Below, one piece after another: positions 16,810 to 39,417 of a DNA stretch of 47,923 nt. The notes below the pieces were generated by a model, which was not told the origin of the DNA, did no database searches, and saw only the letters and a list, made by a program, of their open reading frames with translations. The DNA comes from a virus: the IMG/VR virus record IMGVR_UViG_3300018080_000255, positions 1 through 47,923 of that record; one strand, written 5' to 3'. Made by a program: the position numbers and the translations under genes. Position 1 is the stretch's first letter, and the number at the start of each line of letters is the position of its first letter.

Positions 16810-18591
16810 ATGGCAAAGAAGATTGACTTTGGAAAAGCGTTGGCCAAGGCAAAGAAGAACCAAGCCAACTTGACGAAGAAGAAAGCGGCCCCGAAGAAAG
16901 CGGCCCCGAAGAAGACCGCCAAGCGGAAGACCCCCGCGGCCAAGCCCGGGTCCGCCGTGTTTCACGTTGCGGTTGACGCGTTGCCCGGAACGGGGAAGAC
17001 CTTCACGTTGGTTGTTGGGGTTGCTTGGATGTTTCGCCACTTGCCCGGAATCTGGGAAGCGGTTTGCGAATATCTCCGGAAGGAATTCAACAAGCCCGAA
17101 GGGTGGGAACCGGAACCAAGCCCGGAACAACGCAAGATATGGGACGCCATGACCGCGGGCAAGCTTCCCCGGTTTATAACCTATATGGCATACAACAAAA
17201 GCATTGTCAAAGACTTCGGGGCCAAGTGGGCTTTTCTTTGCGATATGCTGAAACAACACGGGATTGGGTTTGGGTTCCGGACTTGTCATTCAACGGGCTT
17301 TTCCGCGGTCTGTAAAGCGTACAACATTGGGATTGAAAACATTGACGAACACAAGACCAAGACGTTGATTGAAAACGAACTTGGACAAGACCTTCGGGAC
17401 TTTGCCAAGGCGGTTCCGGGCGGGGACACAATCATTTCCGCAACGGACAAGCTTGTTGAACAATGCAAGTTGAACGTTGTCAACCTTTGGGAAATGGATG
17501 AAGCCCAACAGCGGGAAGAACTTGACAAGCTTTGTATTGACTTTGACATTGACCTTGAAGGGATGGAAGACCGCGTCTTTGAATTGGTCCCCAAGATTCT
17601 TGACGCGTCCCGGGAAGAAACCCGCGTCATTGATTTCAATGACCAAGTTTGGTTGCCGGTTGTCAACAATCTTCCCGTCTTCGTCAATGACTTGACCTTG
17701 GGGGATGAAGCCCAAGATTGGAACAAAGCCCAACAACAAATTTTGTTGAAGGTTTCCAAGCCCAACAAGTGGAACAAAGCCCCGCGGTTGTTCGTTGTTG
17801 GGGACGTCAACCAATCCATATACGGTTGGGCGGGGGCGGACACGGATTCAATACCCCGCATGAAGGAAATTTTGAAGGCAACGCCCCAAGGGTTGCAATC
17901 CTTCAAGTTGACGGAAACCCGCCGTTGTTCCAAGGCAATTGTCAAGGACTGTCAAGAATTGATTCCGGAATTCAAAGCCCACCCGGACAACGCGGAAGGG
18001 TCCGTGTCCCGTGTTATGCTTCCGGAAATGTTCAACCGTCTTGGGGACGGGGACTTGGTATTGTGCCGAACAACGGCCCCTTTGGTTGCTTATGCTTTCC
18101 GCTTGGTCAAAATGGGAGTCAAGGCAAACATCAACGGGCGGAAGATTGGGGAAGCGTTGTTGTCCCTTATGAAACGGTTGAAGGGCAAGTCCGTTGAAGA
18201 CATGATTGAACGCTTGGACAAATGGCACGCAAAGGAAGCGGCCAAACTTCGGGCCAAGAAGTATGTTTCAGACAACGCCTTGATTGCCTTGAATGACAAG
18301 CGGGATTGTCTTGAAGCATTCACGGAAGGGGCCGAAACCTTGCAAGACGTCCGGGACGCAATCAACAAGGTATTTGACAACGCGGAAGCCCAAGGGCGGG
18401 AAGGTGTCTTGTTGTCCACTGTCCATAGGGCAAAGGGGATGGAAGCCCGGACAATGTATATTGTTCACCCGGAATTGATTCCCCACCCCGCGGCCAAGTC
18501 CGCCAAAGACTTGCGGGGAGAATTTTGCGTTGACGTTGTTGCAAGGTCCCGCGGTCTGGAAAACCTTGTCCGGGTTGACTGCCCGAAGTAA
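16810..18591 (+). CDS. UvrD/Rep-like superfamily 1 helicase
   Basis: 593 residues. After a Lys/Ala-rich N-terminus (1-48) come motif I GTGKT (60-64), ITYMAYNKSIVKDF, motif II DEAQDW, motif III VVGDVNQSIYGWAGA, LTETRRCSKAIV, and motif V VLLSTVHRAKGMEA. Motif VI, usually VALTRAK, is replaced by CVDVVARSRGLENLV, a notable change around the arginine finger. UvrD-like enzymes unwind DNA 3'-5' in repair and recombination and displace proteins. It starts at ATG 16810 with TTGAAAGGG upstream and is in its own control unit. Confidence 0.9.
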   Translation: MAKKIDFGKALAKAKKNQANLTKKKAAPKKAAPKKTAKRKTPAAKPGSAVFHVAVDALPGTGKTFTLVVGVAWMFRHLPGIWEAVCEYLRKEFNKPEGWEPEPSPEQRKIWDAMTAGKLPRFITYMAYNKSIVKDFGAKWAFLCDMLKQHGIGFGFRTCHSTGFSAVCKAYNIGIENIDEHKTKTLIENELGQDLRDFAKAVPGGDTIISATDKLVEQCKLNVVNLWEMDEAQQREELDKLCIDFDIDLEGMEDRVFELVPKILDASREETRVIDFNDQVWLPVVNNLPVFVNDLTLGDEAQDWNKAQQQILLKVSKPNKWNKAPRLFVVGDVNQSIYGWAGADTDSIPRMKEILKATPQGLQSFKLTETRRCSKAIVKDCQELIPEFKAHPDNAEGSVSRVMLPEMFNRLGDGDLVLCRTTAPLVAYAFRLVKMGVKANINGRKIGEALLSLMKRLKGKSVEDMIERLDKWHAKEAAKLRAKKYVSDNALIALNDKRDCLEAFTEGAETLQDVRDAINKVFDNAEAQGREGVLLSTVHRAKGMEARTMYIVHPELIPHPAAKSAKDLRGEFCVDVVARSRGLENLVRVDCPK

Positions 18592-20263: not shown

Positions 20264-20587
20264 TCAATTCTCGTTGTCTTCGTCCTTCATCCGGGCCAAG
20301 ATTGCTTCCCGTTCCGCGGTCAATTCCTTCTTCAACAAGTCAACGCAAGTGTCAAAGTCTTCGGAAGGGAAGTCCCGCGTTTTCCAATTGACTTCAATGT
20401 GGTCCCCGTTGGGATGGAAGAATGCAACCGTCCAAGACCCCACTTCCGCCAAGGGTTCCAACATGGGAAGAAGGAACGCTTGAAGTTCAAGCAAGTCCGC
20501 GTCCCTTGATTTCATCCGGGACCCTTTCCGGATTGGCTTGGGTTTATTAGGTTTTCTTTTCTTCTTTCTTCTGATTGGTTTCGGCAT
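20264..20587 (-). CDS. Small protein with basic N-terminus, 107 residues
   Basis: Begins MPKPIRRKKKRKPNKPKPIRK. The remainder is acidic, with two helices and a short strand pair (WTVAFFHPNGDHIEVNW). The first eight residues equal those of the nuclease at 9456-10787, and a 23-nt stretch around the two starts is identical. The ATG overlaps the TAA stop of the glycosyltransferase-methyltransferase gene (TAATG), so it belongs to the glycan transcript by position. Function unknown. Confidence 0.6.
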   Translation of the reverse strand: MPKPIRRKKKRKPNKPKPIRKGSRMKSRDADLLELQAFLLPMLEPLAEVGSWTVAFFHPNGDHIEVNWKTRDFPSEDFDTCVDLLKKELTAEREAILARMKDEDNEN

Positions 20588-21900
20588 TATGTCCCCGCAA
20601 ATTTGAATGACTGTTGATTGGGAACTTTGACAAACCAAGTCATCCCGTCCCCGGTTTCAATTGGCAAGTTGTTGGCTTCCGCAAACTTGTCAACCGCCGC
20701 TTTGACCCCAAACCCTTTCCCTTCCTTCGGGCTTCCGTAATCATGACCGCCAATCCATCCCCCGGGCTTGACCTTGCGGATGAACTTCAAGTCTTGATTG
20801 ACAAAGGGTTCCGAATGGTTCCCGTCAATGAAGACCAAGTCAACAGAACGGTTCTTCACTTGACGCAACGCCTTGGAACTTTCTTTCCGGATAAGGTCAA
20901 CGCGTTCCCCAAGCGGACCAAGAAGTTTCCGGGCTTGGTTGAAGATATTGGGCCAACGCCCGCAAGGAATCTTTCCCTTTGCGTCCCCCGTCTTTGTGTA
21001 TACAACAGAAGACGCCCAAGGGTCAACGCCCGTATATTCAAGGTCACGGTTGGCCGATAGAAGAACGCGTCCGTTCAACCCGCGGAAGACCCCTATTTCA
21101 ATCATCCGGGCGGGACCTTCGGGAAGACGGTTCAAGATTTCTTGGGAGTACCAAGGGACCGCGGGGAACAACCGGAAAGCTTTCTGGAAAAGAAAGGTCA
21201 TGAAGGTCTTTCCCGTCAACAGTTCTTCCCGCGTTGCGTCTTTGAACGCGTCCGGAATCACGTTGGTCAAATGATACAAACAAGCGTTGGGGTTGAAGCG
21301 TTGGGTTTCATGTTGGAACGGGTGGGCTTGAACTTGAAAGACCTTCCGGGCTTTGTTCCATTTGATCGGATTCAAACGCCAATGTTCAAAGCGGCGGATT
21401 GACCCCACCTTGTCCCGGTTCAATGACGTCAAGACGTCAAGACTTGTCCCCGTATACGGAACCGCCTTCCCCGCCTTCAAGCGTTCAAGTCCCCGCTTGC
21501 AACGGACCAAACCTTCTTTGATTGTGGGGCTTCCCTTCCGGGCCCCGAAGGGGCAACCAATAACCCGCGGGGCGTTGCCCGCGTGACCAACGCAAGCCAA
21601 GTCAAAAGTCTTGCAAGCTTCAACAAAGCGGGGGTCAATAGGGGCAACAAAGACGCAATCCGAATCAACCCAAATTCCCCCGAAGTTATAGACCAACCAC
21701 AACCGGACAAGGTCCGCCCTTCGGAACAACGGAAGCCCTTCCGTCAACTTCAAGACTTCCCTTCCGCCCTTCATCTTCGCAACTTCCTTGGGTCCCACAA
21801 CTTCAAAGTCATTGTGTAAACGCATAGTTTCAAAGCAAAGCTTTTGAAACGGGGAAGTCTTTGTCCCTTTCTTATTTTCCCAGTAAGTCCAAACCTTCAT
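20587..21900 (-). CDS. GT32-like glycosyltransferase fused to class I methyltransferase
   Basis: 437 residues. Residues 1-230 resemble the DXD sugar transferases of capsule and mannosyl synthesis: FRRADLVRLWLVYNFGGIWVDSD, with D79 and D81 as the metal site. Residues 255-430 form a SAM-dependent methyltransferase: MIEIGVFRG (266-274), YTGVDPW, and DLVFIDGNHSEPF (354-366), as in the Methyltransf_24 group often linked to sugar methylation. One chain may add a sugar and methylate it, capping a glycan. The ATG overlaps the stop of the GT25/sulfotransferase gene as ATGA. Acceptor unknown. Confidence 0.85.
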   Translation of the reverse strand: MKVWTYWENKKGTKTSPFQKLCFETMRLHNDFEVVGPKEVAKMKGGREVLKLTEGLPLFRRADLVRLWLVYNFGGIWVDSDCVFVAPIDPRFVEACKTFDLACVGHAGNAPRVIGCPFGARKGSPTIKEGLVRCKRGLERLKAGKAVPYTGTSLDVLTSLNRDKVGSIRRFEHWRLNPIKWNKARKVFQVQAHPFQHETQRFNPNACLYHLTNVIPDAFKDATREELLTGKTFMTFLFQKAFRLFPAVPWYSQEILNRLPEGPARMIEIGVFRGLNGRVLLSANRDLEYTGVDPWASSVVYTKTGDAKGKIPCGRWPNIFNQARKLLGPLGERVDLIRKESSKALRQVKNRSVDLVFIDGNHSEPFVNQDLKFIRKVKPGGWIGGHDYGSPKEGKGFGVKAAVDKFAEANNLPIETGDGMTWFVKVPNQQSFKFAGT

Positions 21901-23255
21901 CTTTTCCCCTTCCTATATTGCGGCAAGTCCGGTTTGACATAGGCAACCGCTTTGTCAACTTGTTCCTTGGTTGGTTTCAGTTTCAAGAACTTCTTCAACT
22001 TTGTGACCACAACCCGCGGGTGGGAAAGAAGGGTTTCAAAGTTGACCGTCAACACTTGCTTTGACGGAAGGGATTCAATCAATTCTTCTTTCCCTTCCCA
22101 CAACCAACGTTGATGGGCTTCAACAGTTTCATCGGAACACTTGGGGTCTTCTTTGACGTCCGCCCGATTGACCATTGACTTGATTGAATGGGCAAGGGGC
22201 CGCTTTATATGAACCACCCGCAATTGGTCCCCGCAAATATTCCGCAATTGGTCCCCGCAACGGCAAAGTTGGGGATATTTGATTGCGGCGGTTGTTCCCT
22301 TGAAGAAAGCTTCCCGCCGCTTCTCGTTGATGAACGCTTTCAACTTGGCCCAAAGTTGACCCTTGGGAATTGCCAACTTGGTTGTTGGGAAGGGGATTGC
22401 TTCTTGGCAGATTGCCATAAGCCCAACCGCTTCAAACCCGCAATTTTGGTCCGGGTCCTTTCCCCAATATCCAAGCAATTCATTCCCCAAGTGTAGACCT
22501 AAATGATATAGAACGCCCGCCATTGCGGAAGACCCGGACGCATGAAGACCAAGGACCGCAACCAACGGGGTTGACTTCGGGTCAAAGCTTTCCAGTTGTT
22601 CCGCGGGGGCCCAAAAGCGTTCCGGGGGCGTCCGTCCGGAAATGTTTGATTGACCTTCCGCTTGACCAACCAACCATTCCCAAGGGCAGTAGATACGGCG
22701 GGACCGTTGTTGATGGAGTCTTCCCAAGTGGTGGTCAATGTGTTGGGCTTTGTGCCAATCATTGCGGTTCAAATGTTTGTAGACGGTCCGCAACATTTCC
22801 GTTGACCGTATCCCAAAGCAATGCGTCCGGTTGACGTTGAACGGTTGAAAGACCGCTTTGTTGATTTTCTTTGGGGCTTGCTTGTCAATCATCAAATGTT
22901 GACCGCCCAAATATATCATCTCCCAATCTTCCGGAAGGAATTGGAAGAAGCGTTCCACTTTGGCCCGAAAATCTTTGATGAAGATTGCATCATCTTCAAG
23001 GAACAAGACGCTTTGGTGTCCTTGTTGCAACGCGTCTTCTAAGATTCGCAAGTGGGACCGATAGCAACCCCAAGCCCCGCCCCCGGCTTTCCACCAATTG
23101 GGATGTTTTACTTTCTTCCCGTCCATTGCGTCAAAGCGTTCCACTTTGCGGAAAGGCCAATCCCGCGGGACGCGGTCTTTGAAATCTTCCCAACGGTCCG
23201 GACGCCTTTTCAAGTTGACGCAATAAACCTTGTCAAATGTCCCCTTCAAATTCAT
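21897..23255 (-). CDS. GT25-like glycosyltransferase fused to sulfotransferase
   Basis: 452 residues. The N-terminal half matches LPS/collagen-type GT25 enzymes: VYCVNLKRRPDRW (10-22), GAWGCYRSH (60-68), and VLFLEDDAIF (83-92) with the acidic metal site. From about 229 a second domain begins, LVAVLGLHASGSSAMAGVLYHLG, a PAPS-binding loop, with VVHIKRPLAHSIKSM later as the 3'-phosphate strand. Fusion of a hexosyltransferase to a sulfotransferase would let one protein add and sulfate a sugar. A 24-bp tandem duplication falls in the second domain. It starts 15 bp after the Ser-rich tail gene stop, with GGAAAGGGG upstream. Confidence 0.85.
   Translation of the reverse strand: MNLKGTFDKVYCVNLKRRPDRWEDFKDRVPRDWPFRKVERFDAMDGKKVKHPNWWKAGGGAWGCYRSHLRILEDALQQGHQSVLFLEDDAIFIKDFRAKVERFFQFLPEDWEMIYLGGQHLMIDKQAPKKINKAVFQPFNVNRTHCFGIRSTEMLRTVYKHLNRNDWHKAQHIDHHLGRLHQQRSRRIYCPWEWLVGQAEGQSNISGRTPPERFWAPAEQLESFDPKSTPLVAVLGLHASGSSAMAGVLYHLGLHLGNELLGYWGKDPDQNCGFEAVGLMAICQEAIPFPTTKLAIPKGQLWAKLKAFINEKRREAFFKGTTAAIKYPQLCRCGDQLRNICGDQLRVVHIKRPLAHSIKSMVNRADVKEDPKCSDETVEAHQRWLWEGKEELIESLPSKQVLTVNFETLLSHPRVVVTKLKKFLKLKPTKEQVDKAVAYVKPDLPQYRKGKR
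22218..22260. repeat. 24-bp tandem duplication in sulfotransferase domain
   Basis: A 19-nt block (CCGCAATTGGTCCCCGCAA) occurs twice, 24 nt apart, in frame, giving the repeated residues CGDQLR-NI-CGDQLR. It precedes the conserved RVVHIKRP strand, so it lengthens a surface loop without breaking the reading frame. Confidence 0.9.
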
Positions 23256-23270
23256 TGTCCCCTTTCCTTT

Positions 23271-24614
23271 CTAACTTAGAACTAGAATTCCCGAACAACC
23301 GCCTTGGGGCGTATACTCCCCGGTTGGTGGCACGGGCCCCGTATCAAACCGATAGAACAACGTTGACCCGCCCCCAAGGATTGTTGATACAACCCAACGG
23401 TCCGGACCCGCGTTCCACCAAAGGACCCAACTTTCCGCGTTGGTATAATAAGGTTTTCCCGCGAAGTCCCCCGCTTCATTATATCCGCCGTTGGCGGTGT
23501 CACATGGGAAGCCCGCCCCCGTTGCTACATAATCAAAAGCGGATGAAGGGGAACCGGACGCGGATGAAAGCTTGTTAGATATTGAAGGGCTTCCGGACGC
23601 GGACGGACTTGTTGAAGGACTGCCCGAAGGTGAACCCGGGGCCGCGGAAGAATCCGGACCCGCGGAAGAATCCGGGGGTTGGCTTGAATCCGGGGCCGCG
23701 GAACTTGTGGGACCTTGACCGGAACTTGCGGGGGCTTGGCTTGAACCCGCCGCGGAAGAAACGGGGGCTTGACTGGACACCGCCGCGGACGCGGACGCGG
23801 AACCTTCTCCGGAAGAAGAAGAACTTGAAGAACTTGACCCGGAATCTTTGGACGAAGAACTTTGACAAGTACAACAAAAGGTCAAGTCAACTTCTTCAAC
23901 GGGTCCTTCCGTTATACAAATTTGATTCCCTTGAATTGACAAATACCCAAGTTGAACCTTCAACCCGCAACCGTCCGCTTCAATGCCCATCACAACTTCC
24001 GGTTGGACACAAGAAGACGAAGACACGGGGGCGGATGAAGACCCGAAGCTTGAAGATTGGTAAGACGAAGACCGGGACGAAGACGGGGCGGAACTTGAAG
24101 CGGCGGACGATGAAAAAGAACCGGACGAAGATGAACAAGGGAAGGAACATTCCTTCACAATGTAAAGGTCCCCCCAAATATCAGACACCGCAAACAAAAG
24201 GGGTTCTTCACAACCAAGGTCCGCGTGACTTCCGGACTTGCAAGACGTTGACGGTTGGATTGTTTCCGGGCAAAGATTGAAAACCCGAACGTTTACACGG
24301 TCCCCGTTGTCATCCAACCGGGGAATCAATTCCGTTGAATTGACGGTTGATTCCGGGCGGATTGAATGGTCTTCGTCAAGCTTCTTTTCCCGTTCATATA
24401 CACAACAGATTCCGGACCCAAGAAAGACCTTCCCGCCAACCCTACGGGCCCCGGGAATCACTTGCTTGGGTGACACAACATAAGCTTTCAAGAAGTTCCA
24501 AGGACGGTCCGGGAATTCAACCCCGGTTCCCTTGATAGGGTTGGACCGTCTTTCCCGGGCAAACTTCTTCAAGGTCCGGGCGTCTTCAAGGTCATTGAAT
24601 CCGTATATTGCCAT
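23271..24614 (-). CDS. Ser-rich tail protein (putative tail tip or fibre)
   Basis: 447 residues. A structured N-terminus (1-155) is followed by a Ser-rich linker (about 160-203), a Cys-containing module (about 204-250, with CCTC), a long Ser/Ala/Pro/Gly linker (about 251-365), and a C-terminal domain with Trp/Tyr/Gly residues (ESWVLWWNAGPDRWVVST; GEYTPQGGCSG). Similar small C-terminal domains and Ser-rich spacers occur in environmental phage tail proteins. The linkers are ideal O-glycosylation targets, and the next two genes are glycosyltransferases. ATG 24614 uses AAGGG from the preceding repeat element as its ribosome site. Confidence 0.65.
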   Translation of the reverse strand: MAIYGFNDLEDARTLKKFARERRSNPIKGTGVEFPDRPWNFLKAYVVSPKQVIPGARRVGGKVFLGSGICCVYEREKKLDEDHSIRPESTVNSTELIPRLDDNGDRVNVRVFNLCPETIQPSTSCKSGSHADLGCEEPLLFAVSDIWGDLYIVKECSFPCSSSSGSFSSSAASSSAPSSSRSSSYQSSSFGSSSAPVSSSSCVQPEVVMGIEADGCGLKVQLGYLSIQGNQICITEGPVEEVDLTFCCTCQSSSSKDSGSSSSSSSSSGEGSASASAAVSSQAPVSSAAGSSQAPASSGQGPTSSAAPDSSQPPDSSAGPDSSAAPGSPSGSPSTSPSASGSPSISNKLSSASGSPSSAFDYVATGAGFPCDTANGGYNEAGDFAGKPYYTNAESWVLWWNAGPDRWVVSTILGGGSTLFYRFDTGPVPPTGEYTPQGGCSGILVLS

Positions 24615-24623
24615 TTTGAAACC

Positions 24624-24637
24624 CTTGGGTTTATTAG
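24624..24637 (+). repeat. TTGGGTTTATT element between tail genes
   Basis: Contains the TAA stop of the gene at 24634 and, on the minus strand, the AAGGG that serves the next start. Part of the 24-bp block shared with 16768-16791. Confidence 0.75.
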
Positions 24638-25533
24638 AAGGGGCCCAAGTTCAAGTTGTTGAAATTAACCTTTGGGTATCTGTTGAATTCTTTGTATTGG
24701 GGGTCAACGCCCGTTGCCAATTTCTTTCCCGTTCCATTTTCCAAAAAGACTTCCGCGGGGTTGCCCGTCTTGTCCGTGTAGATTTCCAACTTGCCCGCGT
24801 CATTCTTGAACTTGTGTCCAACGTGAAGAACCCGGGCTTTCCAAGTGTCCACTTGTTGAACGCCCGCAATCTTCCGAATCTTGAATTTTATACGATAGGT
24901 CACGCGGACATATTTGACGCCTTCAATTGTTTCTTCGTCCGCTTGGGGTGGCATCATTAACGCGGAACCAACGGGGGCCCCATAGAACGCGGTTGAATTT
25001 GTATGGTTCCCATAATCAAGAATGATGTTGGGGTCAAAGGGATAGAATTCATAACGCTTGACTTCCAAGATTGGGACGGGGGTTTGCGTTGTCACAATCA
25101 AGGTTTCTTCCGCGTCCGTCCGGATTGGGTCTTCCGTGACAAGGTCTTTTTCCAAGACTTCTTCTTCGGATTCACCATACCAACGAATAATGGGTGTCTT
25201 GGCTTCCGGGGGTTGGTCTTGGTCTTCGTCAACGTTGGAATCAAATTGGCAAGGGACTTCCCAAAGGATTGCGGGAATTCCCGTGTTGGGATGAATTATC
25301 CGCGTTGCTTCCTTCGGGTTTTGTGAAATGCAAAACGCCCCGGACAGATTGAAGAACAAGGGGGGAATCCCCGGGGCCAAAACTATATCGTCTTCGGTCT
25401 GGGATATGTTGTCCGATAGAACATAGTAAGTTCTTCGGAACGTCTTTCTTCGGGCCCAAAGCTTGTCTTGTCTTTCAAGCGTTAGGTTTGAAGAATGACT
25501 TGCGTTCTTGATTCCAATGACTTTGGGGGCCAT
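24634..25533 (-). CDS. Tail-associated structural protein
   Basis: 299 residues, mainly beta-like, without a motif I can name. It lies directly after the tape measure gene, where distal tail or baseplate proteins are encoded in siphophages. Notable stretches are TYYVLSDNISQTEDDIVLAPG, an acidic centre (about 100-140), and strands around FYPFDPNIILDYGNH and VRVTYRIKFKIRK. The ATG is 2 bp beyond the tape measure stop with CGGAG 8 nt upstream. A distal-tail role is by position only. Confidence 0.6.
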   Translation of the reverse strand: MAPKVIGIKNASHSSNLTLERQDKLWARRKTFRRTYYVLSDNISQTEDDIVLAPGIPPLFFNLSGAFCISQNPKEATRIIHPNTGIPAILWEVPCQFDSNVDEDQDQPPEAKTPIIRWYGESEEEVLEKDLVTEDPIRTDAEETLIVTTQTPVPILEVKRYEFYPFDPNIILDYGNHTNSTAFYGAPVGSALMMPPQADEETIEGVKYVRVTYRIKFKIRKIAGVQQVDTWKARVLHVGHKFKNDAGKLEIYTDKTGNPAEVFLENGTGKKLATGVDPQYKEFNRYPKVNFNNLNLGPF

Positions 25534-25535
25534 AG

Positions 25536-27971
25536 TTATACTCCGCGGAAGTTTTCTTCTATGTGTTGCAAGACCACAAGTTGGTCTTCAAGTTTGACGT
25601 TGGTTTCTTCGTTGGCTTCAAGAATCTTTTGTTGTGTTCCTTCACGGAATTGTATTTCCGCAATCTTTTGGGCCGCGGCAACGGACCCCGCTTCCAACGC
25701 TTGGCTTGGGGTAATGTTCACCCCGGGAAGACCCGTTGTTGCGGGACCGCCCTTCTTTGCCATTTCTTCCCGTTCTTCTTTGACTTGCTTGTCCGTTTCT
25801 TCCAAAGCTTTTTCCGCTTCCGTTGCGGACCGCTTGGCTTTGATGTTTTCCAACATTCTTTTCAAGTGTTGCTTTTCCGTGTTGATTGCGTCTTGTCTGC
25901 CCTTCTGATTGGCCCCAACCCTATCATTCCACTTGGCAAGATTCTTCCCCGCGTCAACCGCCGCTTGGTCAATCTTGTCATCAAAGCCCGCCCCGGTTTG
26001 GTCAATCGTGTCTTCCCAAGTGTCATTCAATTTCCCAAGTGAATTCTTCAAGTCCGCAATTTGGGCGTCAAGGTTTTGGATTGCGGAAGTTGGAACGGGG
26101 CGTCCCGCTTCCTTTTGACCCATCAACGCTTGCCTTTCATCTTGCAAAGTCCGCAAGCGGTTCCGCAATATCTGTTGACGTTGTTGTTCCAAGTCATCCG
26201 CTTTGGCTTTTGTTTCGGAAACGTCCGTCCCAATTATGACGTCCATTGCTTCCCCCAAGATTCCCGCGTCTTCCGCAAGACGAAGAATTCCGGTTGCAAT
26301 GGACTTCTGAATTGAAAACCAAGTTTGAAGGACCGCCATTTTGGCCCCTTCCCAAGCTTCAATGAAGAAGGTTGCAAACCCTTCCCAAGCGGAAGCCAAC
26401 GTGTCAACCACTTGAAGCCAAGTTGTTGTGATTCCTTGGCCCAAGATTTCCCAAGCGGCTTGAAGGTCACCAACCGCAATTGCGTCAATGATACCGGAAA
26501 AAGTGTCCGTGACTGTTGAAGCAATGCCCCCCAACTTCTCTGAAAAGAAACCCGCAATCCCGTCCATAATTTCCCGGGCTTCATCGGAAAACTTATACAA
26601 CGCAACACCAACGCCCGTGATTGCCAAGACCACAAGACCAAAGGGGGAAATCAAAACAAGAAGAAGACCTTTCAAGATTGTCAACGCGGTTCCCAAAACA
26701 CCAACACCAATTGCCGCAAGTTTGATTGCCGCGGCAACCGCAACCAATCCAAGACCAAGACCGCCAATTGCCGCAACACTTCCCACAATCGCAACAACAA
26801 GCCCTTGATTCTTTTCAATCCATTCCGCAAACCCGTTCAACATATTGACAACAAACTTGCCCATACCTTGAAGGGGCCCGGACAACGCTTCACCAATGGC
26901 AATCTTGACGCCTTCAACGGCGGACATTAACTTCCGGAAGGACCCGCCAAGCCCACTGTCCATAATTTCCGCGGTCTTCTTTGCTTCCCCTTGGCTTTCC
27001 TTCTCCAACTTGTTCAACAGTTCCAACGCGTCAACGGCCCCCCTTGCGGCCCCGGTTGCTTTTCCAAATTGACGGACACCAAACAAGATTGACAGAAGGT
27101 CCCCGCGTTCCGCGGTCCCAAGGTCTTTTGTTATCTCCCCAATTTCTTTCATAAGGTCAAGGGGCTTCCGCAAGTCCCCTTCCGCGTTGCGGAACTTGAC
27201 CGCGGACTTGCCCATCTTTTCCAAGCCCTTGTTGAACTTGCCCGTGAATTCCCCTTTTGACATTCGGGCAAGGAACGATTGAAGGGCGGTTCCGGATTCA
27301 CTTGCGGAAATGTTCAAGTTGGTCATTGAAGCCAACGTTGCGACCGTTTCTTCAAGGGACATTCCGAAGTCCGCGGACAACGGCCCCGCCTTGGACATTC
27401 CGTCAAGCAATCCTTCAAGACTGAAATTGGAATTGTTGACCGCGGTTGTGAAGACGTCCGCAATTCTTTGGGCTTCACTGGCTTCCATTTGGAACGCCCG
27501 CATAGTTCCGGAAATCAAGTCCGCGGACATGACCGCGTCTTCTTCCCCGCCTTCACCCGCGGCCCGGGCCAATGCCAAAACATCGTCCGTCATGTCTTTG
27601 ATTGCTTTGCGGTCAAAACCCTTTTGGGCAAGCTTGGCTTGAAGGTCCCCAACTTGGACCGCCGTGAATGAAGTTGTCCGCCCTAGTTCCTTGGCTTGAC
27701 TTCGCAATTCTTCCATTGATTGGGCGGTTCCATCGGAACGGGCTTCAACCTTCTTCAACGCGTCATCAAAGTCCGCAAAGCTTTTGACCGCAAAGCCAAC
27801 GGGAATCAATGCCGCAATGGACTTGGTCAACATTTGTTGACCCATTGATTGCATACGGTTTGCAAAACCTTTCATCTTTGCGGAAATACGTTTCATGACC
27901 ATTGCCGTTTTGTCAACGGCGGAAATCACAATGAACGCGTCCCCCGCTTTGACGCCCGCTTTGCTTGGCAT
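25536..27971 (-). CDS. Tail tape measure protein (TP901 family)
   Basis: 811 residues. The N-terminal 330 residues have the TP901 tape measure core: helical, with FDDALKKVEARSDGTAQSMEELRSQAKELG and ADVFTTAVNNSNFSLEGLLDGM. A strongly hydrophobic region follows (about 385-465: VVAIVGSVAAIGGLGLGLVAVAA, LLLVLISPFGLVVLAITGVG). The C-terminal third is coiled-coil-like and charged. It sets tail length and is ejected into the host envelope. By the usual 0.15 nm per residue the tail would be about 120 nm. The start at ATG 27971 has GGTGA upstream and an inverted GTTTACAC element next to it. Confidence 0.93.
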   Translation of the reverse strand: MPSKAGVKAGDAFIVISAVDKTAMVMKRISAKMKGFANRMQSMGQQMLTKSIAALIPVGFAVKSFADFDDALKKVEARSDGTAQSMEELRSQAKELGRTTSFTAVQVGDLQAKLAQKGFDRKAIKDMTDDVLALARAAGEGGEEDAVMSADLISGTMRAFQMEASEAQRIADVFTTAVNNSNFSLEGLLDGMSKAGPLSADFGMSLEETVATLASMTNLNISASESGTALQSFLARMSKGEFTGKFNKGLEKMGKSAVKFRNAEGDLRKPLDLMKEIGEITKDLGTAERGDLLSILFGVRQFGKATGAARGAVDALELLNKLEKESQGEAKKTAEIMDSGLGGSFRKLMSAVEGVKIAIGEALSGPLQGMGKFVVNMLNGFAEWIEKNQGLVVAIVGSVAAIGGLGLGLVAVAAAIKLAAIGVGVLGTALTILKGLLLVLISPFGLVVLAITGVGVALYKFSDEAREIMDGIAGFFSEKLGGIASTVTDTFSGIIDAIAVGDLQAAWEILGQGITTTWLQVVDTLASAWEGFATFFIEAWEGAKMAVLQTWFSIQKSIATGILRLAEDAGILGEAMDVIIGTDVSETKAKADDLEQQRQQILRNRLRTLQDERQALMGQKEAGRPVPTSAIQNLDAQIADLKNSLGKLNDTWEDTIDQTGAGFDDKIDQAAVDAGKNLAKWNDRVGANQKGRQDAINTEKQHLKRMLENIKAKRSATEAEKALEETDKQVKEEREEMAKKGGPATTGLPGVNITPSQALEAGSVAAAQKIAEIQFREGTQQKILEANEETNVKLEDQLVVLQHIEENFRGV

Positions 27972-37056: not shown

Positions 37057-39417
37057 TTATTTGCCCGCGTTCTTGATTGCTCCCATTGGTTCATTTTCGG
37101 CAACGCCCCAATCGTGGTAGGAACGCCATTTCATGCCGAGGGTTTCAAAGTCCGCGTCCGTGCTTTCAATCACGGGGGTTGTGTTCCCGTTCAAGAAGCC
37201 CACAACAAAAGCGGCCAAGACCGCGGGGTTGGCGAACATATACCATTGGTCCCCGTCTTGGCCCGTGAAGGCGGTCTTGTCCATTTTCAAAACCGCCGTG
37301 TTGTTGACAACGGGCGAAACAATCGGGGTGAACTTGTTGACATGGGGATTGCGGGCAATCACCCTTTCCGTTGCGGACGCGTCATCCAACCAAGCAACGT
37401 TGGTTTCTTGGAACAAGTCCCGGGCGTTGACTTCGTCTTGGGTTCCAACCAAGATTCTGTCCGGGGAAACCAAGACGGGTTTGTCATCATGGACTTGGTC
37501 ACGGAAGGCGGTTTGACTTCCCGTCAACCCGTCAATGGTCAAGTCACTTCCGGCCCCCGTCAAAAGGTTGCCGTTGGCAAGGTCAAAGAACCCGGACGTT
37601 TCCGCGTTCAAGACAAGTTCCAAGACCGCAAATTCAATCGCCAACGCGGCCAAGCGGCCAAGGGCGGTTGGAATCTGTTGGAACGCGTCTAAGTCATCGT
37701 TGACCATATCCTTGCGGGTCAACGCAAGAATCATCCCGTAGGTGTCACCTTGGACCGTATACTTTTGGTCCGCGAATTCACCGTGTTTCAGTTCACCGGC
37801 TTTCCCAACTTGTTGGTATCCGCCCGTGACCGTCAACCGATAGGATGAATGGGGTTTGAAGTCCGTCAAGTTGCGTCGGCCCGTGATAAGATTCCAGACC
37901 GTTTCTTGGGCCGAATAGGAAGCAAGAAGGGTCTTGTTCGCAACATTCTCCAGAATGTTGGAAGCGGCCATTGTGGAGAAGCCCCCGGACGCTTTCAATT
38001 CGCGGTCCGCGTGAAGGAACGTCTTGATATAATCATCCGATTTCCGGGACCCGTGATAGGTCTTTCCCGCGGCTTGAATGTTCAAGTCCATGAGATACTG
38101 AAGACCAATGTTCCGGTATTGGCGGGCGTCCGCCGCTTCCAAGACTTCGGGCTTATACCAAGTTTCCAAACCGTATTCGTTGCCGGTTTGGTCTTTGGTC
38201 TTGGCCCGGATTGGAAGGTCCGGGTTGATGGACCGAAGAATTGCCACTTCCAACGCTTCCGCTTGAATGTCCGTGTTTTCCATCCGGACGCCTTTGAAGT
38301 TGGAGGGGGTGGGATAGCTTGCCCGGCGGCAAGCAAGTTCAAGGTCATCCGGGGACGAACCGTTGCGGATTGCGTTCTTCTTGGCGGACGCAAGTTTCAT
38401 TTCTTTCCCGTCCCAAGTGACAACGTCAACGTCATCCTTGAACTTGGCAAAGACAGACTTGATTCCGTCAACGCGGTCTTCTTCGTCCGCTTCCGCTTCC
38501 CGCTTGGCTTGCAAAGCAACGGCGGGGTCAACGGGGTCCGGTTTGGTTGCCGGTTGGTTGTTGTTCGGAAGCGGCGGGGGCGTCTTCTTCCCGGCTTCCA
38601 AAATCTTGTGGGCGTCATAATGGGCCCGAAGCTTTTTCTTTTGGTCTTCGGACAATGCGTCCGGGTCAAGACCCATAGCTTTGACAAATTCTTCAAACAT
38701 CGTCTTAATTCCTCCAATGGAAGTTGTGGAATGGTTGGCGGCAATCTTGGCGGAAGTCCGATTGTCCGCCCCAAGAACCGTGATAGTCAATTCCCGGATA
38801 ATAGACTTTTCGGCAACAATTAACGGGCCCCGCCAAGTCCGCCCGTTGACTTCAACGCTTTCACCTTCTTCAACAATGGAACCTTGAACAATCCCCGCCC
38901 CCAAGGACACTTGAAACGGGAAGCCCCGCTTTGCGTCTTCAACATAGGTTTGGGCGGATTCACTTGAAGAAGAAACAATCCCCGCCGCGGCAACCAAAGG
39001 TCCGTTGCGTTGTTTGCCGTTGACCTTTGCGGAACCGCCCGCGGGGATGATTGCTTGTTCTGTTGTGTGGCCAATACGCAACGTCGTGTCATGGTCTTGA
39101 ACAACGGGCGTTCTTCGTTGGTCAAACTTAGCCCCCGCCAAGTCTACAATGACCGGATAGATGAATCCCCGGACGTCCATTGGGCGTCCCGTATTGGCCG
39201 ATAGATAAAAAGACGGGGTCTTGCCTTCCCCGCCTTCCGGGTCCGCCTTGGCTTCAAAGAAGTCCACTTCCCCGTTGGCTTCAATGTTGAACGCAAAGGG
39301 GTCAAGGGCAAGTTCCGCGGACGGGTCAAGAACGGATTCAATGTCAATCAGTTCCCGGGAAGCTTTCAAGGGAAGTTCCCCAAGCGGACCCAAGTTCAAC
39401 GGTTTGCGGTTCTTCAT
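37057..39417 (-). CDS. Prohead protease fused to major capsid protein
   Basis: 786 residues. The N-terminal 220 hold a maturation protease: VVQDHDTTLRIGHT (H109) and PFQVSLGA (S171), the His and Ser of the HK97-type (S78/U35-like) enzymes. A charged, Pro-rich segment (about 235-330) should act as internal scaffold. The remaining 400 residues are the HK97-fold capsid subunit, with RNIGLQYLMDLNIQAAGKTYH, AFAVLEL-type helices and a C-terminal FETLGMKWRSYHDWG. Protease-scaffold-capsid in one chain is known but not common. The start (ATG 39417) has GAAGGGG and a TTTACAC element 23 nt upstream. Confidence 0.85.
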   Translation of the reverse strand: MKNRKPLNLGPLGELPLKASRELIDIESVLDPSAELALDPFAFNIEANGEVDFFEAKADPEGGEGKTPSFYLSANTGRPMDVRGFIYPVIVDLAGAKFDQRRTPVVQDHDTTLRIGHTTEQAIIPAGGSAKVNGKQRNGPLVAAAGIVSSSSESAQTYVEDAKRGFPFQVSLGAGIVQGSIVEEGESVEVNGRTWRGPLIVAEKSIIRELTITVLGADNRTSAKIAANHSTTSIGGIKTMFEEFVKAMGLDPDALSEDQKKKLRAHYDAHKILEAGKKTPPPLPNNNQPATKPDPVDPAVALQAKREAEADEEDRVDGIKSVFAKFKDDVDVVTWDGKEMKLASAKKNAIRNGSSPDDLELACRRASYPTPSNFKGVRMENTDIQAEALEVAILRSINPDLPIRAKTKDQTGNEYGLETWYKPEVLEAADARQYRNIGLQYLMDLNIQAAGKTYHGSRKSDDYIKTFLHADRELKASGGFSTMAASNILENVANKTLLASYSAQETVWNLITGRRNLTDFKPHSSYRLTVTGGYQQVGKAGELKHGEFADQKYTVQGDTYGMILALTRKDMVNDDLDAFQQIPTALGRLAALAIEFAVLELVLNAETSGFFDLANGNLLTGAGSDLTIDGLTGSQTAFRDQVHDDKPVLVSPDRILVGTQDEVNARDLFQETNVAWLDDASATERVIARNPHVNKFTPIVSPVVNNTAVLKMDKTAFTGQDGDQWYMFANPAVLAAFVVGFLNGNTTPVIESTDADFETLGMKWRSYHDWGVAENEPMGAIKNAGK

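Follow-up and report, generated by a model that had tools for sequence, protein, structure and literature searches.

The IMG/VR virus record IMGVR_UViG_3300018080_000255 (47,923 bases, hereafter called the window) carries a gene for a serine-rich tail protein followed by genes for two fused enzymes, a cassette with which the phage probably O-glycosylates this tail protein itself. The genes and their domains, their synteny in other phages and the matching presence or absence of GT25 and Ser-rich genes demonstrate that enzymes and Ser-rich protein are genetically coupled. The window derives from a tailed phage, with portal, protease/major-capsid fusion, terminase, DNA polymerase, primase and tape-measure genes recognised in Pfam, PHROGs and NCBIfam scans; a terminal repeat was looked for in the record and none was found. 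Direct reading of the minus strand returned the open reading frames (ORFs) 23271-24614, 21897-23255 and 20587-21900 and the small downstream ORF as they had originally been predicted, together with the ATGA (21900-21897) and TAATG (20589-20585) overlaps, and a 15-nt gap separates the stop of the Ser-rich gene from the GT25 start. The acceptor candidate and the two enzymes (aa, amino acids) are laid out as follows.

23271..24614, minus strand: Ser-rich tail protein, 447 aa
24009..24143, minus strand: Ser-rich linker 1 (aa 158-202, 27 Ser), a likely O-glycan acceptor
23742..23864, minus strand: Ser-rich linker 2 (aa 251-291, 22 Ser), a likely O-glycan acceptor
23547..23663, minus strand: Ser-rich linker 3 (aa 318-356, 16 Ser), a likely O-glycan acceptor
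21897-23255, minus strand: GT25-sulfotransferase fusion, 452 aa
22611..23255, minus strand: GT25 half of that fusion (aa 1-215)
21918..22583, minus strand: sulfotransferase-fold half (aa 225-446)
20587-21900, minus strand: GT32-methyltransferase fusion, 437 aa
21259..21900, minus strand: GT32/YeGT-like glycosyltransferase half of that fusion (aa 1-214; DxD at aa 79-81)
20611..21153, minus strand: S-adenosylmethionine (SAM) O-methyltransferase half (aa 250-430)

The coupling was measured in phages chosen for the tail gene that precedes the Ser-rich gene (three families) and not for their enzymes; 24 distinct phages had 4.8 kb or more of downstream sequence, the window itself being excluded. Thirteen had both a GT25 and a Ser-rich gene, three had GT25 without a Ser-rich gene, none had a Ser-rich gene without GT25, and eight had neither (Fisher p=2.2e-4; 1.8e-4 and 1.7e-3 at other Ser thresholds), with GT25-positive and GT25-negative states both present within each of the three tail lineages. 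Two of the three GT25-positive phages without a Ser-rich call have 26% Ser. When distinct GT25-sulfotransferase fusions were taken as the starting point, 25 of 31 had a Ser-rich gene on the same strand no more than 5 kb away, and the other six comprise three at a contig end, one borderline case (26% Ser), one with a divergent Ser-rich surface gene, and L213. The GT25-negative phage L250 apparently presents a Thr version of the Ser system, in which acceptor residue and enzyme have both been swapped, although this is a single case: at L250:8762-13853 two GT2 proteins come after a tail protein that combines Cys-rich beads with poly-Thr (Thr makes up 84% of 50 residues, and there is a weak, sub-threshold mucin match), and the first of the two has a rhamnosyl-O-methyltransferase-like region just under the cut-off.

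The Ser-rich protein consists of a conserved N-terminal domain (~aa 1-157), a Ser-rich linker, a small Cys-containing bead, further Ser-rich linkers and a C-terminal bead. By eye, the C-terminal bead (window 23271-23540; G.YN..G..NGKPYYT..WVLWW...RWV.S..LGG) resembles the beads that lie between Ser linkers in L073:6588-7991, a protein that matched no Pfam family. The Ser-rich segments (139 residues) contain 66 Ser, 1 Thr, 20 Ala, 16 Pro and 12 Gly, so that Ser:Thr is 66:1 in the linkers versus 28:18 in the remaining protein, and 15 other Ser-rich proteins have a similar Ser-over-Thr bias in their linkers. The linker Ser codons are divided between TCN (56) and AGY (10) with 20 switches between the two, and both codon families are used by nearly all of the Ser-rich proteins compared. 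This mixture indicates that the linkers are not one expanded DNA repeat, and its simplest reading would be selection for Ser at the amino-acid level. A DNA scan for poly-Ser (TCN x10) returned 120 loci, mostly simple repeats, of which five had a 40%-Ser gene and no GT25, and was uninformative either way.

This composition bears on whether the virion might instead be glycosylated on another acceptor, such as the bead domains, the 299-aa protein upstream or the capsid, with the Ser strings serving as flexible spacers. Bead domains do lie between the linkers, and mycobacteriophage glycans are placed at the C-termini of capsid and tail-tube proteins (Freeman 2023, cited in PMC12619734). Spacers should tolerate Thr, yet the hydroxyl residues of the linkers are nearly all Ser, and GT25 is missing from three phages whose tail genes are related but have no Ser-rich part (L085, which keeps a relative of the window tail protein without Ser linkers, L237 and L244). 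The poly-Thr protein and GT2 enzymes of L250 likewise fit a pairing of acceptor and enzyme better than a spacer function, and we regard glycosylation of another acceptor as unlikely.

The cassette is flanked by three further genes on the same strand.

25536-27971, minus strand: tape measure (PF10145, E=4e-38)
24634..25533, minus strand: 299-aa tail protein in the Dit position between tape measure and Ser-rich gene, used as bait A4
20264..20587, minus strand: companion protein, 107 aa, which adjoins the enzyme pair also in L002-L004, L010 and L011

Six genes in identical order are found in three IMG/VR phages (L002, L003 and L004) and in L010 and L011, so the proposed search of other phage genomes for this gene order found it in at least five, and in L012 the contig ends inside the GT32 gene. 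The 299-aa protein has 72-80% identity in three relatives and no convincing Pfam or PHROG family score, and the N-terminal domain of the Ser-rich protein is kept in L002-L004 and L010-L012. The companion ORF most likely starts at the ATG at 20587 rather than at the TTG at 20638. In the phages collection, the Ser-rich protein had zero relatives and no record covered 80% of either fusion enzyme. A profile scan gave 67 GT25 loci; relatives of the GT32-methyltransferase were not found by single-protein search and were recovered by profile search. The partner enzyme varies among loci, being the GT32-methyltransferase in the window clade, a GT32 with a weak GT8 match in L013, a methyltransferase-GT34 in L044, Stealth/GT61 in L038, Stealth in L221, and in L023 and L206 a methyltransferase (Pfam match) whose front part looks GT8-like by eye.

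Among 20 GT25 matches in the genome collection, 16 carry planctomycete titles, three verrucomicrobial titles and one only 'bacterium', a majority that suggests a planctomycete as the probable host of the window phage. This assignment draws on the GT25 relatives alone because the A4 profile gave only one weak partial match in 294 genomes from the phylum of G001. The planctomycete genome G224 has four fusions (L262, L267, L269 and L270), three of which follow a protein with 68-70% Ser, and in L211 a GT25-sulfotransferase and a 2,937-aa surface-type protein are encoded divergently, the latter having Ser-rich stretches and a weak planctomycete extracellular motif. On the basis of L211 and G224, the pairing of fusion and Ser-rich protein may extend beyond phage tails.

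If the enzymes were to remodel a host surface glycan, for superinfection exclusion or receptor change, they could adjoin the tail gene simply through a shared cell-surface role. GT25 is classically a lipopolysaccharide-type family according to its Pfam name, surface-modifying phage glycosyltransferases are well known (cited in PMC4691112), and the relatives in L208 and L210 lie, by eye, near polysaccharide- or nucleotide-sugar-like genes. Such remodeling leaves unpredicted that GT25 tracks tail Ser content in three tail lineages, that L250 swaps to Thr and GT2, and that fusions are paired with Ser-rich proteins in genomes; moreover, among the genes scanned (Pfam, PHROGs) the cassette had no recognisable flippase or O-antigen-type neighbor. 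We consider host-glycan remodeling quite unlikely.

Both domains of the GT25-like/sulfotransferase fusion, as first proposed from motifs, are supported by profiles and by comparison of confident AlphaFold2 models with PDB structures (mean predicted local distance difference test scores of 92.4 and 89.1 for the models of the two fusions). The GT25 half belongs to its family by profile (Glyco_transf_25, E=1.4e-10, 41.9 bits versus a Pfam cut-off of 24), by fold and by an EDD acidic motif (aa 87-89) that is invariant in 27 relatives. Its nearest solved relatives include the protein-modifying human COLGALT1 (Z 19.6 over 193 residues, 2.9 Å; also matched at sequence level, hmmsearch E 1.6e-11) and the viral mimivirus R655 (Z 16.5). 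The second half falls below the Pfam cut-offs for Sulfotransfer_1 (E=2e-4) and Sulfotransfer_3 (E=6e-4); its profile also matches CurM ST (E 1e-5) and TPST1 (0.008), and its model has TPST1/2 as nearest structures, at Z about 15.5 over 191-199 residues. Fold and the Arg and Ser residues that bind the 3'-phosphate place it in the 3'-phosphoadenosine 5'-phosphosulfate (PAPS) sulfotransferase superfamily, with E275, K326, R352, S357 and S360 (Glu, Lys and the 3'-phosphate Arg/Ser) invariant across 27 fusions. The P-loop of these fusions reads GxHRSGSS in 19 and GxH[A/S]SGSS in eight, including the window (Ala). In L013:7923-9485 the sulfotransferase half of the fusion contains in-frame repeated inserts (RQPAGSIPSPASGW), resembling the insertion of a short repeat element. 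A small domain (GTELKKLL...C.C...MN..G...C), possibly an adaptor, adjoins GT25 or is fused to its N-terminus in 40 loci including L010, L011, L013, L025, L027, L034, L044 and L251; it was not found in the window, and the one copy tested (L034) had no Pfam match.

The GT32-like/methyltransferase fusion of the original prediction likewise found support in both halves from profiles and AlphaFold2/PDB comparison. The first half, a candidate GT32 member, scores just under the cut-off for Gly_transf_sug (E=2e-4, 22.5 bits versus 23) and resembles YeGT (Z 15.1 over aa 1-214), with the DxD invariant. The second half is a member of Methyltransf_24 by a profile score well above the cut-off (E=3.7e-17, 63.6 bits versus 26.3) and by its Rossmann fold; the best PDB comparisons were MeT1 (Z 16.6), MycF (16.2), SpnH (15.7) and NovP (15.5), with many other methyltransferases tied; of those named, several are sugar O-methyltransferases. 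For all four enzyme domains, the model comparisons point to a shared fold, which is not in itself proof of activity. The methyltransferase half also matches PHROG 2675, labelled DNA methyltransferase, and glycosylated phage DNA is common, which would agree with glycosyltransferases that hypermodify the phage's own DNA. That label stems from the same Rossmann methyltransferase region, however, and hypermodification was rejected as highly improbable on the tail-operon location, on folds that match protein- or sugar-modifying enzymes and on the absence of any recognised gene for modified-base synthesis in the set of proteins scanned (Pfam, PHROGs, NCBIfam).

Several points weigh against a self-glycosylated tail. 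The presence of the Ser-rich protein in the virion is deduced from gene position, and the label 'tail protein' likewise comes from its place after the tape measure and the 299-aa gene rather than from homology; phage-encoded glycosyltransferases are linked to a gene whose structural role is thus presumed from position. The Ser threshold was picked post hoc, although the association holds at 0.24, 0.30 and 0.40, and the p-value overstates independence since the bait tail proteins came from GT25-positive loci and the phages are related. L251 in the tail-gene sample is a real exception, with a fusion and no Ser-rich neighbor, as is L213 among the 31 fusions, and 20 of 30 GT25-only proteins also lack such a neighbor. 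The predicted link between enzymes and tail protein stands on synteny, matched presence and absence, the apparent Thr/GT2 swap and host-genome pairing, with L213 and L251 departing from it; the pattern named in advance as refuting, the enzyme pair beside host-surface genes with no Ser-rich neighbor, was looked for among the 31 fusions, of which 25 are paired and L213 is the clear exception. Finally, the P-loop Arg found in 19 of 27 relatives is replaced by Ala or Ser in the window clade, removing the basic residue for the 5'-phosphosulfate. A basic residue at this position matters in known sulfotransferases, and sulfation by the window phage is therefore doubtful, leaving that part of the original prediction unsupported. 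The half has nonetheless been retained despite the loss of Arg, as judged from its constraint (63-67% identity, with a nonsynonymous divergence, dN, of about 0.3 versus a synonymous divergence, dS, of 1.2-1.5), and dN below dS in every domain indicates purifying selection.

The chemistry, acceptor, order of steps, sugars and virion location of a tail self-glycosylation module can be proposed as follows. In the infected cell, the GT25 half would attach an initial sugar, taken from a nucleotide sugar, to linker Ser, the GT32-like half would lengthen the glycan, the fused methyltransferase would O-methylate a sugar and the fused sulfotransferase fold would sulfate the glycan where active. The product would be a stalk at the tail tip in which glycosylated Ser strings connect the beads. 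A broader reading, which we advance tentatively, is that the fusions could be the initiating O-glycosyltransferases of Ser-string glycosylation in Planctomycetota and their phages, each fusion matched to a Ser-rich protein of its own and with swappable partners (GT32-, GT8-like- or GT34-methyltransferase, Stealth/GT61, and GT2 for Thr) that diversify glycan-coated stalks, some of them sulfated.

Phage enzymes are known to glycosylate virion proteins of mycobacteriophages such as Che8 (Freeman et al. 2023, cited in PMC12619734, PMC12691614 and PMC11256854). Common to both would be phage-encoded glycosyltransferases acting on the phage's own structural proteins; the mycobacteriophage glycans are carried by capsid and tail-tube C-termini, whereas the window cassette pairs a Ser-rich tail protein, as the proposed acceptor, with a GT25-sulfotransferase and a GT32-methyltransferase fusion. 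Serine-rich repeat protein (SRRP) adhesins of Gram-positive bacteria are O-glycosylated intracellularly by glycosyltransferases from adjoining genes (PMC5207161 and PMC6973325). The cassette resembles them in having a Ser-rich, putatively adhesive protein with glycosyltransferase genes alongside, and differs in its glycosyltransferase families and in placing the protein on a phage tail rather than a cell surface; no GtfA/GtfB or SecA2/SecY2 was recognised in the window proteins scanned (Pfam, PHROGs, NCBIfam), which are part of the window ORFs. Mimivirus L230 glucosylates viral collagen-like proteins (PMC4691112), and COLGALT1 and mimivirus L230/R655 share the GT25 fold and family of the window half as its closest solved relatives. 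Collagen GT25 enzymes act on hydroxylysine, whereas the acceptor proposed here is Ser, and no collagen or lysyl hydroxylase was recognised. Tyrosylprotein and bacterial PAPS sulfotransferases (CurM ST, Stf1) have in common with the window half the fold, the catalytic-type Glu/Lys and the 3'-phosphate Arg/Ser; unlike them, the window half is fused to GT25 and its clade is missing the P-loop Arg. The open-licence literature yielded no description of a phage sulfotransferase-glycosyltransferase tail cassette, in agreement with the earlier statement that no phage system with these activities was known, so that virion self-glycosylation is established and this combination of acceptor and enzymes is, as far as searched there, undescribed.

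Should the proposal be correct, phages of a poorly cultivated phylum would equip themselves with mucin-like tails by means of a multi-step set of glycosylation enzymes of their own, and Ser-string tail stalks would join capsid and tail tube as sites of virion self-glycosylation. GT25 enzymes would gain a Ser acceptor, phages might imitate or engage planctomycete surface glycoproteins, and the compact enzyme-acceptor pairs could serve protein glycoengineering.

Elsewhere in the window, the prohead protease and major capsid protein form a single fused protein (37057-39417; NCBIfam NF045541 below cut-off, PHROG 4523), and a Rep/UvrD-like helicase is encoded on the opposite strand at 16810-18591; L002 and L004 have a similar gene downstream of their cassettes.
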